A stretch of 64,000 nt of DNA from a virus: positions 51,057 to 115,056 of the IMG/VR virus record IMGVR_UViG_3300021093_003900. One strand, written 5' to 3'. This document shows, one piece after another, positions 26,831-51,900 of the stretch. Position 1 is the first letter of the stretch. The number at the start of each line of letters is the position of its first letter. The notes beneath the pieces were generated by a model. The model worked only from the letters and a program-made list of their open reading frames with translations, searched no databases and was not told the DNA's origin. Position numbers and translations under genes: made by a program.

Positions 26831-29587
26831 ATGATCACAACAGAAGAAATCAAAAGTTTTTTAGAGGGTAACGATCCAGAAGAGCATATAGTCGCACTTG
26901 AGTTCGATTATGCAAGTGAAGATATCTTTAAAATCAAGGAAATCCCTAGTAAAGGTAAACAAATTGTCAGGGATACTTTTATTCCGTTTTGTTGGGTTGG
27001 TGATTTACGTAAATTAAACTTTTATGGAGGATCAAAAGCTCAACAGAAAGAGGCGATGTCCAAACATAAAATTCTTATTGAAAAACTAGAAACTCACGAC
27101 AATGAAAGATTAACCCAAGGTCTTACATTCTTGGTAAAATCCTTAAAAGGATATAGAAATCTTATTCAGTTTTTTCGTGATGGTGGTATAGATCCTTGGG
27201 GTGATGCGGCAAAAGAACAATTTCTATTATTACCACCAGTTGAACAATATTTGATTCAAAAAGAAAAAAGATTATTCAAAGGATATGAAGAATACAACGA
27301 TATCACTCGATTTGTATTTGACTTAGAGACGACCGCACTTGATCCAAAAGATGGTCGTATTTTTATGATTGGTATGAAGACAAATAAAGGTTTTCATCAA
27401 GTTATTGAATGTCTCACAGAAGAACAAGAAAAACACGGATTGATTGAGTTTTTCAGGACAATACACAAACTTAATCCAAGTATCATTGGTGGTTACAATA
27501 GCTTTAACTTTGACTGGCAATGGATCATTGAAAGATCCAAAGCTCTTGGTTTGGATATGAAGAAAATTTGTATAACCCTCAATCCAGAAAGACATTTCTC
27601 ACAAAAAGAACAATTGCTCAAACTTGGTAATGAGGTTGAGAAATTCAATCAGATTGGAATGTGGGGATATAATGTAATTGATATTCTTCATGCTGTGAGA
27701 AGAGCTCAATCAATCAATTCAAATATCAAAAGTGCTGGTCTTAAGTATATCACACAATACTTGGAACTAGAAAGTCCAAATCGTATTTACATAGATCATC
27801 AAAACATCGGTAAGATGTATGAAAAAAAAGAGGAGTATTGGTTAAATATTAACAATGGAAAATATAAAAAAGCTGATATTCCTGAGTTTGCAAACTTAGA
27901 TCAAAGATTTCCATCAGTTTATGAAAAAGTTACTGGAGATAAAATTGTTGAGATGTATCTTGACGATGACTTGGATGAAACTTTACGTGTTGATGAAGAG
28001 TTCAATCAAGGTTCTTTTCTTCTAGCATCTCTTGTACCAACGACTTATGAAAGAGTTTCTACAATGGGAACCGCGACGTTATGGAAAATGATTATGCTCG
28101 CTTGGTCATACAAACACAACTTAGCAATTCCGAAAAAACAAGAAAAAAAGGATTTTGTGGGTGGATTATCACGTCTTATTAAAGTGGGTTATTCTACCAA
28201 TGTTCTTAAACTCGACTTTAGTTCACTTTATCCTTCTATTCAACTTGTACACGAAGTTTTTCCTGATTGTGATGTGACTGGGGTGCTCAGAGGATTTTTG
28301 AAGTTTTTCCGTGATTCTCGTATATTATACAAACAACTTGCGGAAGAATTACACGAGACAGATCCAAAAAAATCAAAATCATACGATAGAAAACAATTAC
28401 CTATCAAAATCTTTATCAATAGTATGTTTGGTGCCCTGTCAGCACCTCAAGTCTTTGCTTGGGGTGATATGTATATGGGAGAACAAATTACCTGTACTGG
28501 TAGACAATATCTTCGTCAAATGACAAAATTCTTTATGGCACGTGGTTATGAACCACTTGTGATGGATACGGACGGTATTAACTTCTCAGCACCAAACGGG
28601 GTTGAAGATCGAGTTTATATTGGTCGAGGTAACAATTGGAAAGTTAAAAAGGGTAAAGAGTACAAAGGCACTGCGGCTGATATTGCTGAGTATAATGATA
28701 TTTTTATGCGTGGTGAGATGGCGTTAGATAACGATGGTGTGTGGCCAAGTTGTATAAACATCGCCAGAAAAAACTACGCACTTCTCACAGAAAAAGGAAA
28801 AATCAAGTTGGTTGGAAACACTATTAAGTCAAAAAAATTACCGGGTTATATCGAGGAGTTTCTTGATAAGGGAATTAAATTATTACTTCAAGGTAAGGGA
28901 AAAGAATTTGTCGAGTTTTATTATGAATATCTGACAAAGATCTACAATATGGAAATTCCTTTAGTCAAAGTAGCTCAAAGAGGTAAAATAAAACAAAGTA
29001 TCTCTGACTATGAAAAAAGATGTAAACAAACAACTAAGGCGGGTAATTTGATGGCAAGACAAGCACATATGGAACTTGTAATTCAAAAAGGGATGAGTGT
29101 TAATTTGGGTGATGTTATTTATTACGTCAACGATGGAACTAAAATCTCTCAAGGTGATGTGTCCAAAAAGGGTGATACTATTACATTAAATTGTTATTTG
29201 GTAAGTCAAAGCGACATTGATAATAATCCGAATTTAACAGGTGTGTATAATGTTCCTCGAGCAATCTCAGTATTCAATAAACGTATTGAACCACTTTTGG
29301 TTGTGTTCAAACCAGAAGTTAGGGATATTTTGTTAGTCACCAATCCAGAACAAAGAGAGTATTTCACAACTCTACAATGTCAACTTGTAAATGGACAACC
29401 TTTTAATGAAACCGATCAAGATAATTTACAAAGAGATGTCTTGGAAATTACCGAACAAGAGTTGGAGTATTGGAAAAAGAGGGGTCTTGATCCGAACTAC
29501 ATTTACGATCAAGCTGCAGATGGGTGGGAAAAAGTGGTAACTTACCAAAGTTTAACACCATCAGAAGAAAGTATGTACCAATTGTGA
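26831..29587 (+). CDS. Family B DNA polymerase (gp43-like)
   Basis: A 918-residue replicative polymerase. Exonuclease domain: VFDLETTALDPKDGRIFMIG (Exo I acids near 163) and SIIGGYNSFNFDWQWI (Exo II). Polymerase motif A is DFSSLYPSI near 461, motif B is KIFINSMFGALSA, and motif C is VMDTDGINFS near 577-586. Motif C has Gly where T4-type enzymes usually have Ser (DTDS), but both metal-binding Asp remain. The length matches T4 gp43 (898). It copies phage DNA with the clamp, gp32 and gp41. A host-type promoter precedes it, and its 3' end overlaps the convergent gene by 46 nt. Confidence 0.97.
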   Translation: MITTEEIKSFLEGNDPEEHIVALEFDYASEDIFKIKEIPSKGKQIVRDTFIPFCWVGDLRKLNFYGGSKAQQKEAMSKHKILIEKLETHDNERLTQGLTFLVKSLKGYRNLIQFFRDGGIDPWGDAAKEQFLLLPPVEQYLIQKEKRLFKGYEEYNDITRFVFDLETTALDPKDGRIFMIGMKTNKGFHQVIECLTEEQEKHGLIEFFRTIHKLNPSIIGGYNSFNFDWQWIIERSKALGLDMKKICITLNPERHFSQKEQLLKLGNEVEKFNQIGMWGYNVIDILHAVRRAQSINSNIKSAGLKYITQYLELESPNRIYIDHQNIGKMYEKKEEYWLNINNGKYKKADIPEFANLDQRFPSVYEKVTGDKIVEMYLDDDLDETLRVDEEFNQGSFLLASLVPTTYERVSTMGTATLWKMIMLAWSYKHNLAIPKKQEKKDFVGGLSRLIKVGYSTNVLKLDFSSLYPSIQLVHEVFPDCDVTGVLRGFLKFFRDSRILYKQLAEELHETDPKKSKSYDRKQLPIKIFINSMFGALSAPQVFAWGDMYMGEQITCTGRQYLRQMTKFFMARGYEPLVMDTDGINFSAPNGVEDRVYIGRGNNWKVKKGKEYKGTAADIAEYNDIFMRGEMALDNDGVWPSCINIARKNYALLTEKGKIKLVGNTIKSKKLPGYIEEFLDKGIKLLLQGKGKEFVEFYYEYLTKIYNMEIPLVKVAQRGKIKQSISDYEKRCKQTTKAGNLMARQAHMELVIQKGMSVNLGDVIYYVNDGTKISQGDVSKKGDTITLNCYLVSQSDIDNNPNLTGVYNVPRAISVFNKRIEPLLVVFKPEVRDILLVTNPEQREYFTTLQCQLVNGQPFNETDQDNLQRDVLEITEQELEYWKKRGLDPNYIYDQAADGWEKVVTYQSLTPSEESMYQL

Positions 29588-39195: not shown

Positions 39196-40026
39196 ATGTT
39201 AACAGTTAAAAAAAAACGTAATATCATTTCGGAGGGTTTCGATCAGTTCGGAACCCCCGATTTGAAGTATTATGCCTTTGACTGGGATGATAATATTCTT
39301 CAAATGCCAACAAAGATAATGTTGATGGATGATGAGGGTAATGAAGTTGGTATGTCAACAGAGGACTTTGCAAAATTTCGATCTAAAATTGGAAAGAAAA
39401 ACTTTGAATATGAAGGTCATAAAATCGTTGGGTATGCAGAAGATCCTTTTAGATTTTTTAGGACATTGGGTGATAAAAAATTTTTGTTTGATACCATGAA
39501 TGCTAAACCAGGACCAGCTTGGTCGGACTTCATTGAAGCTATCAATAACGGATCTATTTTTTCTATCATTACAGCTAGAGGGCATAACCCGAGAACAATT
39601 AGAGAAGCTATTTATAATATGATCATACAAAATCATATGGGTATCAACAGAGATTTACTGGTTAAAAACCTGAAGAAGTATAGAAAGATTACCAAGGAAG
39701 GCCCAACAAATACAAAAAATCTTATAAATTACTATTTAGATTTAAACAAATACTACCCAGTTACCTTTGGCGATGATGGTAGTGCTTCAAATCCAGAAGA
39801 ACTCAAAGTAAAAGCACTGAGAGAGTTCATCAACTATGTCAAACAACATGCTAAAAAATTAAATAAGAAACTCTTTATGAAAGATAAAATAAGTAATAGA
39901 TTTTTACCAACAATTGGATTTTCCGATGATGATATAAAGAACTTAGAAAGAATTAAACAAGAATTTATTAAAGAACCTTTATTAAAAACTTATAACACTT
40001 CATCAGGAACAAAAACTAAATTCTAA
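39196..40026 (+). CDS. HAD-superfamily protein between sheath and tube genes
   Basis: In this 276-residue protein YYAFDWDDNILQMPTKIMLM (residues 25-44) has a DxD motif I (Asp29 and Asp31, in DWDDN). FSIITARGHNPRTIREAIYN supplies the motif II Thr-Ala-Arg, and VTFGDDGSASNPEELKVKAL supplies the acidic pair of motif IV. A basic C-terminal region follows (KQHAKKLNKKLFMKDKISNR). This resembles HAD phosphatases such as polynucleotide 3'-phosphatase domains. The location between sheath and tube is unusual for an enzyme. It may have a role in tail assembly, or may only have been inserted here. It begins 6 nt after the sheath stop. Confidence 0.65.
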   Translation: MLTVKKKRNIISEGFDQFGTPDLKYYAFDWDDNILQMPTKIMLMDDEGNEVGMSTEDFAKFRSKIGKKNFEYEGHKIVGYAEDPFRFFRTLGDKKFLFDTMNAKPGPAWSDFIEAINNGSIFSIITARGHNPRTIREAIYNMIIQNHMGINRDLLVKNLKKYRKITKEGPTNTKNLINYYLDLNKYYPVTFGDDGSASNPEELKVKALREFINYVKQHAKKLNKKLFMKDKISNRFLPTIGFSDDDIKNLERIKQEFIKEPLLKTYNTSSGTKTKF

Positions 40027-40184: not shown

Positions 40185-40673
40185 ATGGCTGATTTACTAA
40201 TGAAAATGCCCGTTCCGTATGAACCGAAAAGGGTAAACCGATTTATACTTAGATTTGATTCAACGTTGGGTATTAACGAATGGTATGTTGAATCTACTGA
40301 TAGACCTTCAATTGATATAGCATCTGTTGCAATTCCATTTTTGAATACAGAAACGTATGTGGCTGGAAGATTTAAATGGAATGCTATGAACGTAACATTC
40401 AGAGATCCTATTGGGCCTTCGGCAACACAAGCACTTATGGAGTGGGTTCGTCTGCATGCGGAATCAGTTACTGGTCGTATGGGATATGCTGCTGGATATA
40501 AAAAGAATGTTGATTTAGAAATGTTAGATCCAACAGGTGTAGTTGTTGAAAAATGGATTTTGGATTCATGTATGATAACTAAATCCGCATGGAACCAAGC
40601 ACAGTATAGTCAAGACGGACTTGCAACACTCGCAGTGACACTTCAACCAGATCGTTGTATATTGGTCTACTAA
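40185..40673 (+). CDS. Tail tube protein (gp19-like)
   Basis: A 162-residue protein, the same length class as T4 gp19 (163). PKRVNRFILRFDSTLGINEW, ESTDRPSIDIASVAIPFLNT, FKWNAMNVTFRDPIGPSATQ and LTVKDP-like beta segments ending TLAVTLQPDRCILVY are typical of tube proteins. It forms the hexameric rings of the inner tube under the sheath. It has its own TATTTATA element and a strong terminator directly after, consistent with high, separate expression. Confidence 0.93.
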   Translation: MADLLMKMPVPYEPKRVNRFILRFDSTLGINEWYVESTDRPSIDIASVAIPFLNTETYVAGRFKWNAMNVTFRDPIGPSATQALMEWVRLHAESVTGRMGYAAGYKKNVDLEMLDPTGVVVEKWILDSCMITKSAWNQAQYSQDGLATLAVTLQPDRCILVY

Positions 40674-40776: not shown

Positions 40777-41526
40777 ATGGACGAAAATTTGATGAAATAC
40801 GGTCAAGAGAATTTTTCTCTACCGCACGATGTTGTAAAGCTACCTAGTGGAGGTAAGTTTTACCCAAATAAAAAAAAATCAGTAAAAGTAGGTTATTTGA
40901 CCGCTAACGACGAGAATTTGTTAATGGCTACAAATACTGACGATCTGATCATTAATCTTCTAAGATCCAAAGTATACGAACCAGATCTGAGACCAGATGA
41001 AATGATTAACGGTGATTTGGAAGCCATTCTTATTTTTTTGAGAAATACATCATTTGGACACGAATACAATATTAGTGTAAATGATCCAACCACAGGTAAA
41101 CCTTTCAAAGCTGTGATTGGGTTAGACGAACTCGAGTTTAGAAAACCAAACGTAGAACCAGATGATAACGGAACTTGGACTGTTACACTACCAAAGTCAC
41201 AAACATCTGTTACTATACGTCCATTATTGTATAAAGAAATTACAGATATTAATCGTCAAGCCGATTCTTATCCACAGGGACGTGTCGCTCCAAAAGTCAC
41301 TTGGAGATTACAAAAACAAATTGTTTCAATTAATGGTGATAGTCAGAATCAAACAATTGCTAAGTTCATCGACACACTTCCAATTATGGATTCCAAGTTT
41401 ATCAGGAATTTCTTGGATGAGAATGAACCAAAGATTGATCTAAAAAGAATAGTTACAGCCCCGTCAGGAAGTAAGGTCGATGTAGAAGTCACCTTTGGGG
41501 CGGAATTTTTTCGTGTATTCTTCTGA
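40777..41526 (+). CDS. gp26-like baseplate hub / tail assembly chaperone
   Basis: A 249-residue protein with the T4 gp26-family start VVKLPSGGKFYPNKKKSVKV, then LTANDENLLMATNTDDLIIN, LLRSKVYEPDLRPDEMINGD and LEAILIFLRNTSFGHEYN. The C-terminus TFGAEFFRVFF ends at a TGA. It lies exactly between tube and tape-measure genes, where long-tailed phages encode tail assembly chaperones. A +1 overlapping frame continues as a plausible gp51-like extension (see 41513-41653), suggesting two products. In T4, gp26 helps build the baseplate hub. Confidence 0.75.
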   Translation: MDENLMKYGQENFSLPHDVVKLPSGGKFYPNKKKSVKVGYLTANDENLLMATNTDDLIINLLRSKVYEPDLRPDEMINGDLEAILIFLRNTSFGHEYNISVNDPTTGKPFKAVIGLDELEFRKPNVEPDDNGTWTVTLPKSQTSVTIRPLLYKEITDINRQADSYPQGRVAPKVTWRLQKQIVSINGDSQNQTIAKFIDTLPIMDSKFIRNFLDENEPKIDLKRIVTAPSGSKVDVEVTFGAEFFRVFF

Positions 41527-41653
41527 TTATAGAGCGTACCTAGTTGACGAGTTTTATATTCTGAATCAAAGATGTAATGTATCTTATTCAGACTATTTGA
41601 AAATGCCAATTTTTTGGAGAAAAAGATTATTGGATAAGATATCCACAACATAA
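41513..41653 (+). CDS. gp51-like / frameshift extension of the tail chaperone
   Basis: In the +1 frame relative to the gp26-like gene a coherent 46-residue sequence runs to TAA at 41653: YSSDYRAYLVDEFYILNQRC, then NVSYSDYLKMPIFWRKRLLD and KISTT. The S-Y-x-x-Y-L-x-M-P-I-x-W-R-x-R segment is like the C-terminal part of tail chaperones and T4 gp51. Either it starts at the GTG at 41513, or ribosomes shift +1 on GAA TTT TTT C (41503-41512), where tRNA-Phe can re-pair with TTC. In the latter case the product is a fusion AEFF-VYSSDYRAY. Confidence 0.6.
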   Translation: MYSSDYRAYLVDEFYILNQRCNVSYSDYLKMPIFWRKRLLDKISTT

Positions 41654-41716: not shown

Positions 41717-41727
41717 AAAAAAGATTG

Positions 41728-43671
41728 ATGCAGTCACAACCACCACCACCACCCGGACAAGGGAACAGTTTTTTTGATGAACTTCAAAAAAACGTAAAAG
41801 ACACTTATAATACCATAAATGAAAAACTTAAAGATATTAGGCGTCAAAACGAACTCCTAGATAAGAGTATTCTGGAAAAAAACGAAGCACTAGCAAAAAC
41901 TTTTGGTCGTACTCAAGTTGCCGTAAAAGGTCTCCGATTATCGTTAGTTGAATCATTACCAACCATAACTACTTTGGGGGGTGGTCTTGAAGATGCTTTT
42001 AATATAATACATAAGACTTCCGATGAACTTGGAACTAATAGAATATTATTAGGTGAAACCACAAAAGACCTCTACGCTGTACAGAAAGCTTTCGGCTTAG
42101 AAGGCTATTATATGGGTACATACTTAAAAAATTTCCATGATGCGGGTATAGATGTTGGACTTATTAGGGATAGAATGGAAGAAACTTTGAATATTGCAAG
42201 ATTAGTTGGGGCTAACTCGCACGCAGTGTTTACAAACGTAGCAAATAGTTTAGATCAAATTAATAAGTATGGGTTTAAAGATGGTGTTGAAGGGTTATCA
42301 CGTATGGCCGCCAAAGCAGTATCGATGAGGTTCGATATGTCACAGATATTTAGTTTCGCGGAAAAAGTTTTTAGTCCAGAAGGAGCAATTGAAGCCGTAG
42401 CTACTTTCCAAAGACTAGGTGTTGCCGTTGGTGATTTAGCAGACCCTTTTAGACTTATGTACCTTGCATCAGAAGATGTAGAAGGACTTACAGATCAAGT
42501 TGTAAAAATGACAAGTAAGTTTTCTTATTTTGATGAAAAAAGCAAAGAATTCAAAATTTTTCCATACGCAAAAAGAGATATAAGGGATTTAGGAGCACAA
42601 ATGGGCGCAACTTACGAAGAAATGGTAAAAATGTCTTTCGCACAAACTAAATTAAATAAATTATCTAGTGAATTTAAATTCAATGCTAATGTAAAAGAAA
42701 CCGATAAACAATTAATTGCGAATCTTGCACAATACAGTAAAGAAAAAGGTGATTTTGTTGTTAAGGTCAATCGAGAAGAAAAATTGGTTACTCAACTTAG
42801 TGAAGAAGATATTGAAGAATTAAGAGGTAGACCAGAAACAGTGGAAGACGTTGCCAGAGCCCAACTTGAAGAAAGTGAATTAATCAAAAAGGCAGCAGAG
42901 GGTATTTTTGACCTACTGCGAGGAATAACTGTAGGTGCCAAACCAACACAAGATTTGGCTGAACTTGTAAGAGCCACAAAAGAAGGTGTTAATAAAGCGG
43001 CTACTAAAGCGAGCGGAAATGTAAGAGGTGGTATAAAAAAAGTCGACGAGTTTTACCTTGCCATCTCAAAAAATCTCAAAGCGATAATTGATGACTACAA
43101 TAAGGGTACTATTAATTTTACAGAGTACATAGACAAAATGCAAAAAGCTTCAGAATCATACACTGGTAGTCTTGAAGACTTGTCAAAAAGAATTATAGAA
43201 TATGATTTCCTAAAAAGTATTGATCCAAAAAACAACCCACTTATTAGCAAGGATAATTTAATTGCAGGTGCTGTAGATTCAGTGATAACTGAACTGCTAA
43301 ACGGGGCAAAAAAACTTAATGAGGTTTTCAAAGCCATTAATTTTAATAGCACCCCTAGTCAACAAACATCGTATCAATCTACACCTTCTATGAATCAGAC
43401 AACCCCCCCTTTACAAGCTTATGCAGTTATATTGCCGACACCACCAAAACAATTACCAACTGAATTTACATCAAATAATCAAAATGTTTCGTTTTCACCA
43501 ATCAATGGAAACATAGAGTTGAAAGTTGTTACAGAAGACGGAACAAAAGTAGATTTAACAAATCAAATTGTGAGTAGTGCTGAGTTCCAAAGAAGAGTCG
43601 TATCCCTTATTTCTGAAAGAATGCAAAACCAAAATTACAACAACTTACCAAATTCAACAGCAATTTCGTAG
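41728..43671 (+). CDS. Tape measure-like tail protein
   Basis: A 647-residue, mostly helical protein, started at ATG 41728. A Pro-rich start (QSQPPPPPGQG) leads into a coiled coil (NTINEKLKDIRRQNELLDKS). A region VKGLRLSLVESLPTITTLGG, ALGLE-like helices and YMGTYLKNFHDAGIDVGLIR, SRMAAKAVSMRFDMSQIFSF and VFSPEGAIEAVATFQRLGVA is typical of tape-measure N-terminal domains. The C-terminus has a Pro/Gln/Thr linker and ends in a small domain. It sets tail length and lies just after the chaperone genes, as usual. T4 gp29 has 590 residues. Confidence 0.75.
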   Translation: MQSQPPPPPGQGNSFFDELQKNVKDTYNTINEKLKDIRRQNELLDKSILEKNEALAKTFGRTQVAVKGLRLSLVESLPTITTLGGGLEDAFNIIHKTSDELGTNRILLGETTKDLYAVQKAFGLEGYYMGTYLKNFHDAGIDVGLIRDRMEETLNIARLVGANSHAVFTNVANSLDQINKYGFKDGVEGLSRMAAKAVSMRFDMSQIFSFAEKVFSPEGAIEAVATFQRLGVAVGDLADPFRLMYLASEDVEGLTDQVVKMTSKFSYFDEKSKEFKIFPYAKRDIRDLGAQMGATYEEMVKMSFAQTKLNKLSSEFKFNANVKETDKQLIANLAQYSKEKGDFVVKVNREEKLVTQLSEEDIEELRGRPETVEDVARAQLEESELIKKAAEGIFDLLRGITVGAKPTQDLAELVRATKEGVNKAATKASGNVRGGIKKVDEFYLAISKNLKAIIDDYNKGTINFTEYIDKMQKASESYTGSLEDLSKRIIEYDFLKSIDPKNNPLISKDNLIAGAVDSVITELLNGAKKLNEVFKAINFNSTPSQQTSYQSTPSMNQTTPPLQAYAVILPTPPKQLPTEFTSNNQNVSFSPINGNIELKVVTEDGTKVDLTNQIVSSAEFQRRVVSLISERMQNQNYNNLPNSTAIS

Positions 43672-48950: not shown

Positions 48951-51900
48951 TATTCCTAAAACCAATGAAGATGTTTTTGTAGTACAAAGTTATGATAACA
49001 TCATTCTAGTTGATCCCAACAAAGTAGTAAATCCAAATGGACAAGTAAGTGAAAGGGGGATTAATCAAGAAGATTTTGTAATGTATGCAAATCTTGAAGC
49101 ACAACTTTTACCACGAACAAAATTAATACAAGGGGTTTCACAAGATGATGGTATTGAAGCTATACAAAATCAAACACTAGCATCGATTAATTTTATGAAA
49201 CCGGGAGGTAAAACTTTTTTAGACAATACATACACAGATCAAATTACTGGATTTAATACCCTGACTAGTCAAGGTATCAATCAACCAAATATCGAAAACT
49301 TACAAAAAACCAATAAATCTAAAGATTTTTTTCTTTCTCAAAATACATTAAATAAACAAGATACTGGACTTTTGGGTATCGAAAGTATTTCAATCAAAAA
49401 TACAAGATCGTTTACACCAATGGTTGATATTACATTAATTGATATACAAGGTAGGGCTTTATTCGAAAAAGGAGAACAATCAGAGTACGCATTTTTTTTT
49501 AACTTACCTTACCCTACTTTTTACTTAACAATCAAAGGGTATTACGGTAAAGCAATCAAATATCAACTTATTCTCACAAAGTTTAATGCGGCATTCGAAG
49601 CTGCTTCAGGGAACTATAGAATCGATCTGCAATTTTATTCTTACAAATATACAGTACTAGCTGAGACTCAATTAGGTGCTTTGTTTGCAACACCATTTAT
49701 GTATACAAGTGAGTTTAAATTTACAACACCACAATCTCCAGCTATTGCCGCAGCTCAGGTTTCTGTTGGCGATGACAAAAAAACAGTCATCAATAAACAA
49801 ACAACTAGAGGTCGTCAATATATTGCCAACGTATACAAAAAATATAAAGCACTTGGATTATTAGCACCAGATTTCCCTGAAATCACATTCCCAGAATTTA
49901 GAGCACAAATACAAGCGTTACAAAAAAACTTAGAGCAGACATTCGGACAGTCTGATTTCACACCATTAACAAACGCTGACGATTATTTTGAGATACTTCA
50001 AAGTTTTAGATCGTCTATCACAGACAGAACATCAAATTCAAGTTGGTTTAATAAATTTATTGATATTGATAAAGTTTTTATTCTTCAAGAAACAAATAAT
50101 AAACCCTTGACCGAGGTTTGGATTTTGAATCAAAAGACAAGATCCAATAGTCAACTTATTGAAAATGCTTTAAGTGAATTAGAAAAAATTGTTACACGAT
50201 ACAAAAATGACTTACAAAAAAATCCTACATTTGGTGAGAATGGTAATTTCGAAATAGAGAAATTGAAATATACAAGTCAAATAAAAACGATTGAACAGAT
50301 CAATGCGAATAAAAGTAAAGACAGAGCTAGTGTTGAACCAAATAGTTTTGTAAATGTCATTTCTTCTGAAAACATCGATTGGATAGCCACTTTTAAAAAA
50401 CGATATAATAGAGAACCCATTGCGGAGGATGAGTGGATAACTCTAAAAAATACAGAATCTCAATTATTTGGAACTATTCTTGATGAAACGTTGAAAGGAC
50501 AAACGTTTCCATCTTACACGTTTGTTTTTTCTGATAATGTCGGACAATTTGAAGAAATTATTGATAAGACGTTCGAAGAATTAGGAAAACAAAAATCAAT
50601 TATAATTAACAAATTATCAACGTTCTTAAATAAAAAAATAGAAGGCCCAAATGGTTTGGGGTTTAGACCAACCATGAGAAATGTGATGGGTATTATTTTT
50701 GCATCTGTCGAAGCTTTTTATAGATTATTAAATCAAGTACACAGAGAAGCTTGGGCACAAAGAAATAATCCAACAAAACGACTAGCTTGTTATGGACAGG
50801 GTGATGAAAAAATAAATCCTGATAATAAAGAAAATGTGAACGATTATGTTTACCCGTGGCCGTTATACTTGACAAAACAAGTCGAAAAAGATGGAAAACA
50901 AAATTTTGTTGTTATGTATCCTGGCGAACAATCTGAACTTGCAAAAACAAAAGCATCAGATTACCAAATATGGCCCGAGGTACAATTCGTCGAAGAATAT
51001 ATGAGAGGATTATCTCAAAGTAATCAAAGCAATGCCGAACAATCTGGAACTTTTAGTGATAATGATATTGGACGATTAATTAACAGGATTTCAGTAAACG
51101 CTGTAGACTTTCCAACTAGTAATGCGATTTTAAGTGATCTACAAGATGTTAAATTTCTTTATGAAATTTACGAAAGGATCTTACTTCAAACTTTTTGGGA
51201 TAGACTATCAAGACCAAACGCAGAAAAGATCGGGGTTGTAGATAATCTTTCCGAAATGGAAATGATCAACGTTAGGAATGCTTTGAATTCGTTTTCAAAT
51301 CCGATAATTACAAAACTATTGAAAAATACAGCCTTCAGTTCAACAAACTATTTACAAGTATTAAGAAATATATCAAATGAAGGTGTTGGTATTTCTTGGC
51401 AACAATTTATTAGAGGTATTTTTACATCTGACTATTTGAGAATAAAAACTCAAAAAGATTTTTCAATATTACCAGTATCAACAATTAATTCTGGAGTACA
51501 AAATTCTAGTAAAGATACAAGTATTTTAAAAAATGTTGGTGAATTTGTAAAAAATACATCTTCAAGCGAAACTGATTTATTGGATTTATATCCATTCGTG
51601 TATAATACTTGGTCACAACAAAATCTATCAAATGTTGTTAGTAATTCTTCATTTTATAGTACAACTAAAAGTTTATACCTCAATTCGGTAACAAACTATA
51701 TTACAAACTTTGAAAACATAGCTAACGCAAATACCAATAGTAATAGACCATTTGTTAACAATTCATATTTGTATTTTACTGAACCAAGGATTATTATTAC
51801 AAATAATCAACAACAAATTGGCTCAAATGCGTTTTTAGATTTTAATAGTTTTTATACAGAAAAAAGAATAACATCGAAATATTTGATAACTGAAGGGTCA

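Follow-up and report, generated by a model that had tools for sequence, protein, structure and literature searches.

A predicted programmed +1 ribosomal frameshift, preceded by a conserved RNA hairpin, in a putative T4 gp26/gp51-type tail assembly chaperone gene

Our analysis makes it very probable that a phage gene for a T4 gp26-like protein carries a programmed +1 ribosomal frameshift, which would give rise to a short and a long tail assembly chaperone of the T4 gp26/gp51 type. This reading rests on comparative sequence data, without peptides, ribosome profiles or reporter measurements. The gene is located in a viral DNA stretch of 64,000 nucleotides (IMG/VR record IMGVR_UViG_3300021093_003900, positions 51,057 to 115,056), which we refer to as the window. 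Its open reading frame (ORF; window positions 40777 to 41526, + strand) encodes the predicted short chaperone product of 249 amino acids and matches the T4_baseplate family (PF12322, E=2e-11, 44.5 bits against a cut-off of 24.5; phrog_150, E=4e-14). The 3' end of this ORF reads GCG GAA TTT TTT CGT GTA TTC TTC TGA. The +1 frame remains open between 41495 and 41653, with VYSSDYRAYLVDEFYILNQRCNVSYSDYLKMPIFWRKRLLDKISTT as the sequence that follows TTTC, and taking TTTC as a single Phe step results in a protein of 291 amino acids. A first-pass annotation of the same DNA had described a gp26-like protein ending at 41526 and a coherent +1 frame up to 41653, and this layout was recovered in the ORFs and in all 96 relatives described below. 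The gene sits between a tail tube protein gene (40185 to 40673, + strand; phrog_4542, E=6e-25) and a large ORF in the tape-measure position (41725 to 43671, + strand, with an ATG at 41728), which was assigned from position and size and has a weak phrog_3590 match and a sub-threshold PF10145 match; phages immuto and SP-15 have the same gene order. No tRNA genes were found in the window. Elsewhere in the tail operon, a 276-aa ORF (39196 to 40026), beginning ...YYAFDWDDNILQMPTKIMLMDDEG, has the look of a HAD-type phosphatase when inspected by eye, without a family match.

To describe the junction, we used 96 relatives from IMG/VR in which the junction is complete and the gp26-like protein shows 50-100% identity, and 71 representatives of these, thinned to <90% nucleotide identity. 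An in-frame TTT CGN within 20 codons of the stop, together with a +1 continuation, was present in 96/96 relatives, far more than chance would give. The slip codon (41509 to 41511, + strand), from which tRNA-Phe would move +1 to TTC at 41510 to 41512, was TTT in all 71 representatives. The codon after it (CGT in the window, 41512 to 41514, + strand), which would occupy the A site, was CGN in 71/71 (CGG 26, CGT 23, CGC 21, CGA 1), whereas only 12.6% of the gene's other Arg codons are CGN. Likewise, the codon for Gly-241 was GGG in 69/71, against 8% of Gly codons elsewhere in the gene, and among 89 conserved columns none was more biased than those of Arg-246 and Gly-241. CGG and CGC each make up 0.6% of the background and yet account for 47 of the 71 junctions (26 + 21). 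This excess is consistent with selection acting on the middle base of the first +1 codon, which is constrained to GNC (GGC, GCC or GTC; Gly, Ala or Val), and implies that the shift happens before that codon. It is also possible that CGN acts here as a slow codon. The conservation of the junction, its frames and the slip motif are direct observations; that the shift occurs, and at what rate, is inferred. Sequences inside one clade are not independent, and the motif by itself carries no signal, since 43 window ORFs contain eight in-frame copies of TTT_CGN. One CAG TTT TTT CGT stands in frame at codon 114 of a long ORF at 26831 to 29587.

The first-pass annotation had proposed that tRNA-Phe re-pairs from UUU to UUC, and this is feasible at 71/71 loci. 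It had also asked for conservation of a TTTTTTC run, of which the TTT_CG part proved invariant; the T6 run is not strictly kept, because the first Phe codon is TTT in 68 representatives and TTC in 3. These three bear on another explanation, in which the ribosome shifts by -2 or RNA polymerase slips on the T6 run. Most members have TTTTTT, which would permit -2 re-pairing, but the +1 layout persists without the run in TTC TTT CGN (3/71) and in the CTT TGG and CTG TTT CGN of other families. The TTC TTT CGN variants rule out both forms of this explanation, to which we give very little credence. A +1 shift at the stop codon itself, as in prfB or SPP1 gp17.1, would be suggested by the strong conservation of TTC TTC TGA in the clade. 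However, the short-form stop varies (TGA 52, TAA 16, TAG 3) and stands two codons later in 6/71, the stops of distant families are several codons further on, re-pairing of tRNA-Phe on UCU is impossible, and TTC TTC is accounted for by Ser-Ser coding in the +1 frame. The varied and displaced stops exclude such a shift, which we rate as slightly less credible still. Finally, a decayed gene or a sequencing error, with an indel as the cause of the frame break, has nothing in its favor beyond the break itself and can be dismissed for practical purposes: about 200 independent contigs, which come from many samples and hosts, share the break at one and the same codon.

We then considered whether the +1 frame could be translated from a start of its own. 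A stand-alone small gp51-like gene could begin at GTG 41513 or TTG 41495, or through termination-reinitiation at the gp26 stop. The window does carry both the GTG and the TTG, the huge phage LR756511 has a separate copy of the domain with a TAATG overlap, and TAATG or TGATG overlaps exist in several phages with a -1 layout (see below), where reinitiation is thus possible. Against this, the GTG is lost in most relatives, in which it is replaced by GAG, GGG, GGC or GCC, so that the nested GTG gene that the first-pass annotation had offered as the alternative to a +1 frameshift found no support. The TTG, at codon -5, simply results from TTT GGG. The +1 ORF is without ATG in 47/71 representatives, and ATG, GTG and TTG are all absent from it in 8/71 members of the window clade and in 31/67, 11/23 and 5/9 members of three other families, so that startless +1 ORFs occur in four families. 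Moreover, none of the 43 window ORFs of at least 100 aa has a strong Shine-Dalgarno core, the leaders being A/T-rich, which hints at a Bacteroidota-like host. A separate gene would also leave TTT_CGN and the hairpin described below unexplained, and we regard it as improbable. The first-pass annotation had stated that a clean start codon in relatives, together with no conserved slippery run, would refute the frameshift. In the window clade the opposite was found: the GTG is lost and TTT_CGN is invariant, in agreement with the +1 frameshift.

The +1 frame encodes a conserved protein domain. This gp51-like or T-like domain of 46 amino acids (41513 to 41653, + strand), part of the 291-aa long form, lacks a conserved start codon, and its beginning overlaps the 0-frame tail of the short product (R-V-F-F-stop with TGA in the window; 41512 to 41526, + strand). 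In 70 moderately diverged pairs, substitutions after the overlap were distributed over +1-frame codon positions 1:2:3 as 515:249:1045, and single-base codon changes were synonymous in 634 cases versus non-synonymous in 262; by this measure the domain is under purifying, protein-level selection. AlphaFold2 models, made separately for the short form and for the +1 domain, predicted three helices for the domain (mean pLDDT 90) and had a mean pLDDT of 86 for the short form. With the latter, Foldseek matched predictions for SP-15 and for T4-like baseplate hub assembly proteins in BFVD, and gave no credible match in the PDB.

The region upstream of the slip codon holds a conserved RNA hairpin, which was not among the observations of the first-pass annotation. 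The 5' arm of its outer stem (GCCCCG, 41458 to 41463, + strand) pairs with the 3' arm TGGGGC (41496 to 41501, + strand), which contains the GGG codon 241 and ends 8 nt before the slip codon; 97.8% of the cells in this stem are paired. An inner stem is formed by AAGGT (41473 to 41477, + strand) and ACCTT (41491 to 41495, + strand). Both stems were recovered by RNAalifold from 70 sequences without any prior, and the window clade as a whole pairs [A/G]CCCC at -51..-47 with GGGG[U/C] at -12..-8 from the slip codon. Covariation is observed directly. At 41460:41499, a compensatory change from C-G to A-U is seen in two relatives (L032 and L048; GCACC/GGTGT), and column pair 28:44 of the inner stem is GC in 32 and CG in 27 sequences, although this switch partly follows two subclades with different residues and hence does not represent 27 independent events. 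Over 69 distinct rows, 90.7% of the hairpin cells were paired, compared with 34-63% when the arms were slid by 1-3 columns, and 73 cells were double-changed against 32 in shuffles (0/500). The third base of codon 228, a synonymous position in the 5' arm, was C in 69/71 versus a background of 12.5%. TCA GGA (Ser-Gly, 41464 to 41469), in the bulge of the hairpin, has near-invariant synonymous sites (TCA 63/71, GGA 69/71) even though it is unpaired. A downstream stimulatory structure was not seen in the 60 nt after the site (mean z -0.65 versus -0.46 for the control).

The pairing probability at -12..-8 was 0.95-0.99 in the window clade (control about 0.41), 0.87-0.97 in a set of loci like that of Streptomyces phage BRock (controls 0.4-0.5) and 0.56-0.67 in an immuto-like set. 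In a position test, a hairpin whose 3' arm lies at -11..-9 was ranked by energy against other codon positions of the same gene, which gave a Fisher p=1.7e-6 for nine +1 phages and p=0.50 for 13 phages with a -1 layout (rank test flat). Since the offset had been taken from the window clade and several of the phages had been inspected by eye beforehand, the fair test is one with new loci and a fixed offset. This yielded KS p values of 7e-16 (67 loci), 2.6e-7 (9 loci) and 1.7e-3 (23 loci, weak), which are too small because the loci within each set are related. The hairpin is strongly supported for the window and BRock clades, less so for the SP-15-like loci (median rank 0.20). The -1 phages, too, show mildly raised upstream pairing (0.60-0.66 at -13..-9, control about 0.46), so that a distinction between +1 and -1 phages by the hairpin is suggestive only. 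Any role of the hairpin is inferred, and a role in choosing the shift direction is not proven. On 70S ribosomes, a hairpin adjoining the E site was reported to stimulate +1 and attenuate -1 shifting, being about 60% as effective as an internal Shine-Dalgarno sequence; in that system the hairpin drove +1 shifting at CUU_UGA, and only in the absence of RF2 (Huang, Cho and Chang, PMC6321510). An internal Shine-Dalgarno-like GGGG is present at our site as well and is a possible stimulator, but it is less consistent with the data than the hairpin: the GGTG variant is accompanied by a matching CACC in the 5' arm, and strong Shine-Dalgarno cores are missing from the window ORFs, as noted above.

The +1 layout is not restricted to the window clade. 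By eye, we found it in Flavobacterium phage immuto (TTT CTT TGG), Bacillus phage SP-15 (TTT TTT CAC), Listeria phage LIS04 (TTT TTT AGT), Microcystis phage Mel-JY01 and Rhodothermus phage RM378 (both TTT TTT TGG), the huge phage LR756508 (TTT CTA), Streptococcus phage GXN1 (TTC TTT CGT) and BRock (CTG TTT CGC). In two of these phages slippage is more likely at the first Phe codon, namely LR756508 (TTT C) and LIS04 (TTT T). Fresh IMG/VR sets added about 100 loci with this layout beyond SP-15, RM378, BRock and immuto. In the immuto/Mel-JY01-like set, TTT_TGG was present in 58/67 loci and TTT_T or CTT_T in 67/67; TTT_CGN was found in 16/23 SP-15-like loci, a family that also uses TTT_CAY, and TTT_CGN or TTT_CAG in 9/9 BRock-like loci. 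A model of the window-clade domain matched the +1 ORFs of 63/67 immuto/Mel-JY01-like and 14/24 SP-15-like loci, compared with 1/23 and 0/11 for the -1 ORFs, and was of no use for the BRock-like domains, which are too diverged. Two loci depart from the pattern. In an immuto/Mel-JY01-like locus (L169, IMGVR_UViG_3300020442_002272), the sequence AAT TTC TTC TGG has lost the slip TTT and is followed by the domain in the -1 frame, through either an assembly error or a real switch. In LR756511 (LR756511.1, 4771 onward; L026), which falls in the +1 part of the tree, the domain is a separate ATG gene, and frameshifting seems to have been lost. Taken together, the ATG of LR756511 and the -1 frame of L169 indicate that frames can change.

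In other phages, the same Phe-Phe codons form part of T_TTT_TTN, and the equivalent domain follows in the -1 frame. These are the cyanophages S-H25, P-HM2 and S-CRM01, the pelagiphage Mosig, and phages phiN3, RaK2, XacN1, RAS14, X1, Ps15, D481, AF3 and Atu_ph07; the junctions of S-H25, P-HM2, Mosig, RaK2, XacN1, RAS14 and X1 are without ATG. Vibrio phage K364 (L119) and Klebsiella phage Menlow (L121, Ackermannviridae) have the -1 domain without a clear U_UUU_UUN, and the Menlow junction reads ATT TTC, again without ATG. When the +1 label was mapped onto a tree of 37 gp26-like proteins, two changes sufficed, and none of 500 shuffles was as low. With long deep branches and an arbitrary root, this is consistent with a single change of shift direction. 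The long product was missing in the annotated phage records examined, where the extension is a separate hypothetical gene, a short gp51 or not listed; in L112, L123, L125, L115 and other annotated records it is given a start of its own, often an internal one.

The relation to T4 could be traced through the protein family. T4 gp26 and gp51 each match PF12322 over its full length, gp51 with an extra C-terminal part, and are paralogs corresponding to the short and the long form. The first-pass annotation had contrasted the present locus with the separate gp26 and gp51 of T4. It was right that T4 has two genes, which lie on opposite strands, but the contrast is incomplete, because both encode paralogous PF12322 proteins. 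An HMM comparison gave no direct match between the +1 domain and the gp51 C-terminus (E=1.2), and hhalign found no relation between the whole fused profile and T4 gp51. With hhalign, the window clade matched the -1 phages at 88.6%, and these matched the gp51 C-terminus at 45.8%. The proposed link of the extension to the gp51 C-terminus is thus indirect, by way of Pfam and PHROG matches and intermediates. A chaperone role, which would entail binding to tape measure and tail tube and absence from the virion, is a prediction drawn from the protein family and the order of the genes. According to PMC10885494 and PMC12846349, Vladimirov, Gautam and Davidson (2022) proposed short and long tail assembly chaperones of the T4 type. 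As cited in the PRFect paper, the same work holds that some T4-like phages have a short copy plus a long fused copy and no frameshift, and as cited in PMC12846349, that there are poly-T -1 signals in T4-like chaperone genes. We therefore do not claim these parts as new. The +1 UUU_Y class in this gene family, with its upstream hairpin, appears to be unreported, as far as can be judged from citations of the 2022 study.

We propose the following mechanism. Most ribosomes would stay in the gp26-like frame, terminate at 41524 and make the 249-aa form. Some would pause when UUU occupies the P site and CGU the A site, whereupon the peptidyl-tRNA-Phe may re-pair on UUC one base forward and reading would continue in the +1 frame to 41653, giving 291 amino acids. 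The mRNA hairpin at 41458 to 41501 would refold in the wake of the ribosome, its base lying 4 nt upstream of the E-site codon, and would probably favor +1 and oppose -1 movement. The two forms would then act on tape measure and tail tube like lambda gpG/gpGT. More speculatively, and with somewhat less than even confidence, we suggest that in a large clade of T4-type phages a refolding upstream hairpin drives +1 shifting at UUU_Y, that the frame (+1 or -1) used at the same Phe-Phe was switched in evolution with hairpin gain as the cause, and that T4 later swapped frameshifting for gene duplication.

Several known systems resemble parts of this arrangement. In lambda gpG/gpGT (Xu et al. 2004; PMC5009743), a gene flanked by tube and tape-measure genes likewise makes a short and a long product through a 3'-end extension in another frame; the window gene differs in shifting +1 rather than -1, at UUU_CGN instead of a tandem-slip heptamer, with an upstream hairpin as the candidate stimulator, and in belonging to PF12322. 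A 2016 review considered chaperone frameshifting widely conserved in long-tailed phages except T4 (PMC5009743). T4 gp26 and gp51 are of the same protein family, gp26 resembling the short and gp51 the long form, but are two opposite-strand genes rather than one frameshifted gene. In Vandenendeviridae and Andersonviridae (PMC12846349), a myovirus chaperone gene also has a poly-U slip site at its 3' end, which is however -1, with the motif GTTTTT. Phage tail genes with +1 shifts are also known from SPP1 gp17.1* and HSTV-2 (PMC6316719, PMC5009743), the SPP1 case being CCC_UAA in a tube gene. As in prfB (RF2), the P-site slip would be forward, with an mRNA duplex just behind the ribosome as its stimulator, but the duplex here would be an intramolecular hairpin instead of a Shine-Dalgarno:anti-Shine-Dalgarno helix, and a sense codon rather than UGA stands in the A site. 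The slip motif itself is identical to that of influenza A PA-X and the plant amalgaviruses, in which UUU_CGN serves as the +1 motif with all four CGN codons, the P-site tRNA moving from UUU to UUC with CGN in the A site (PMC5052127). In contrast to these, the window belongs to a bacterial virus, presumably read by 70S ribosomes, has a conserved upstream hairpin, and has related clades with UUU_UGG and UUU_CAN; common descent of the sites is not implied.

Altogether, the relatives of T4 gp26 have a conserved slip site whose direction can be read from the sequence, +1 in one part of the tree and -1 elsewhere. UUU_CGN, a motif described for RNA viruses of eukaryotes, occurs in phages together with an upstream hairpin, which had earlier been an engineered stimulator on 70S ribosomes. 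The split between +1 and -1 is a natural experiment on what determines the direction of ribosomal slippage.
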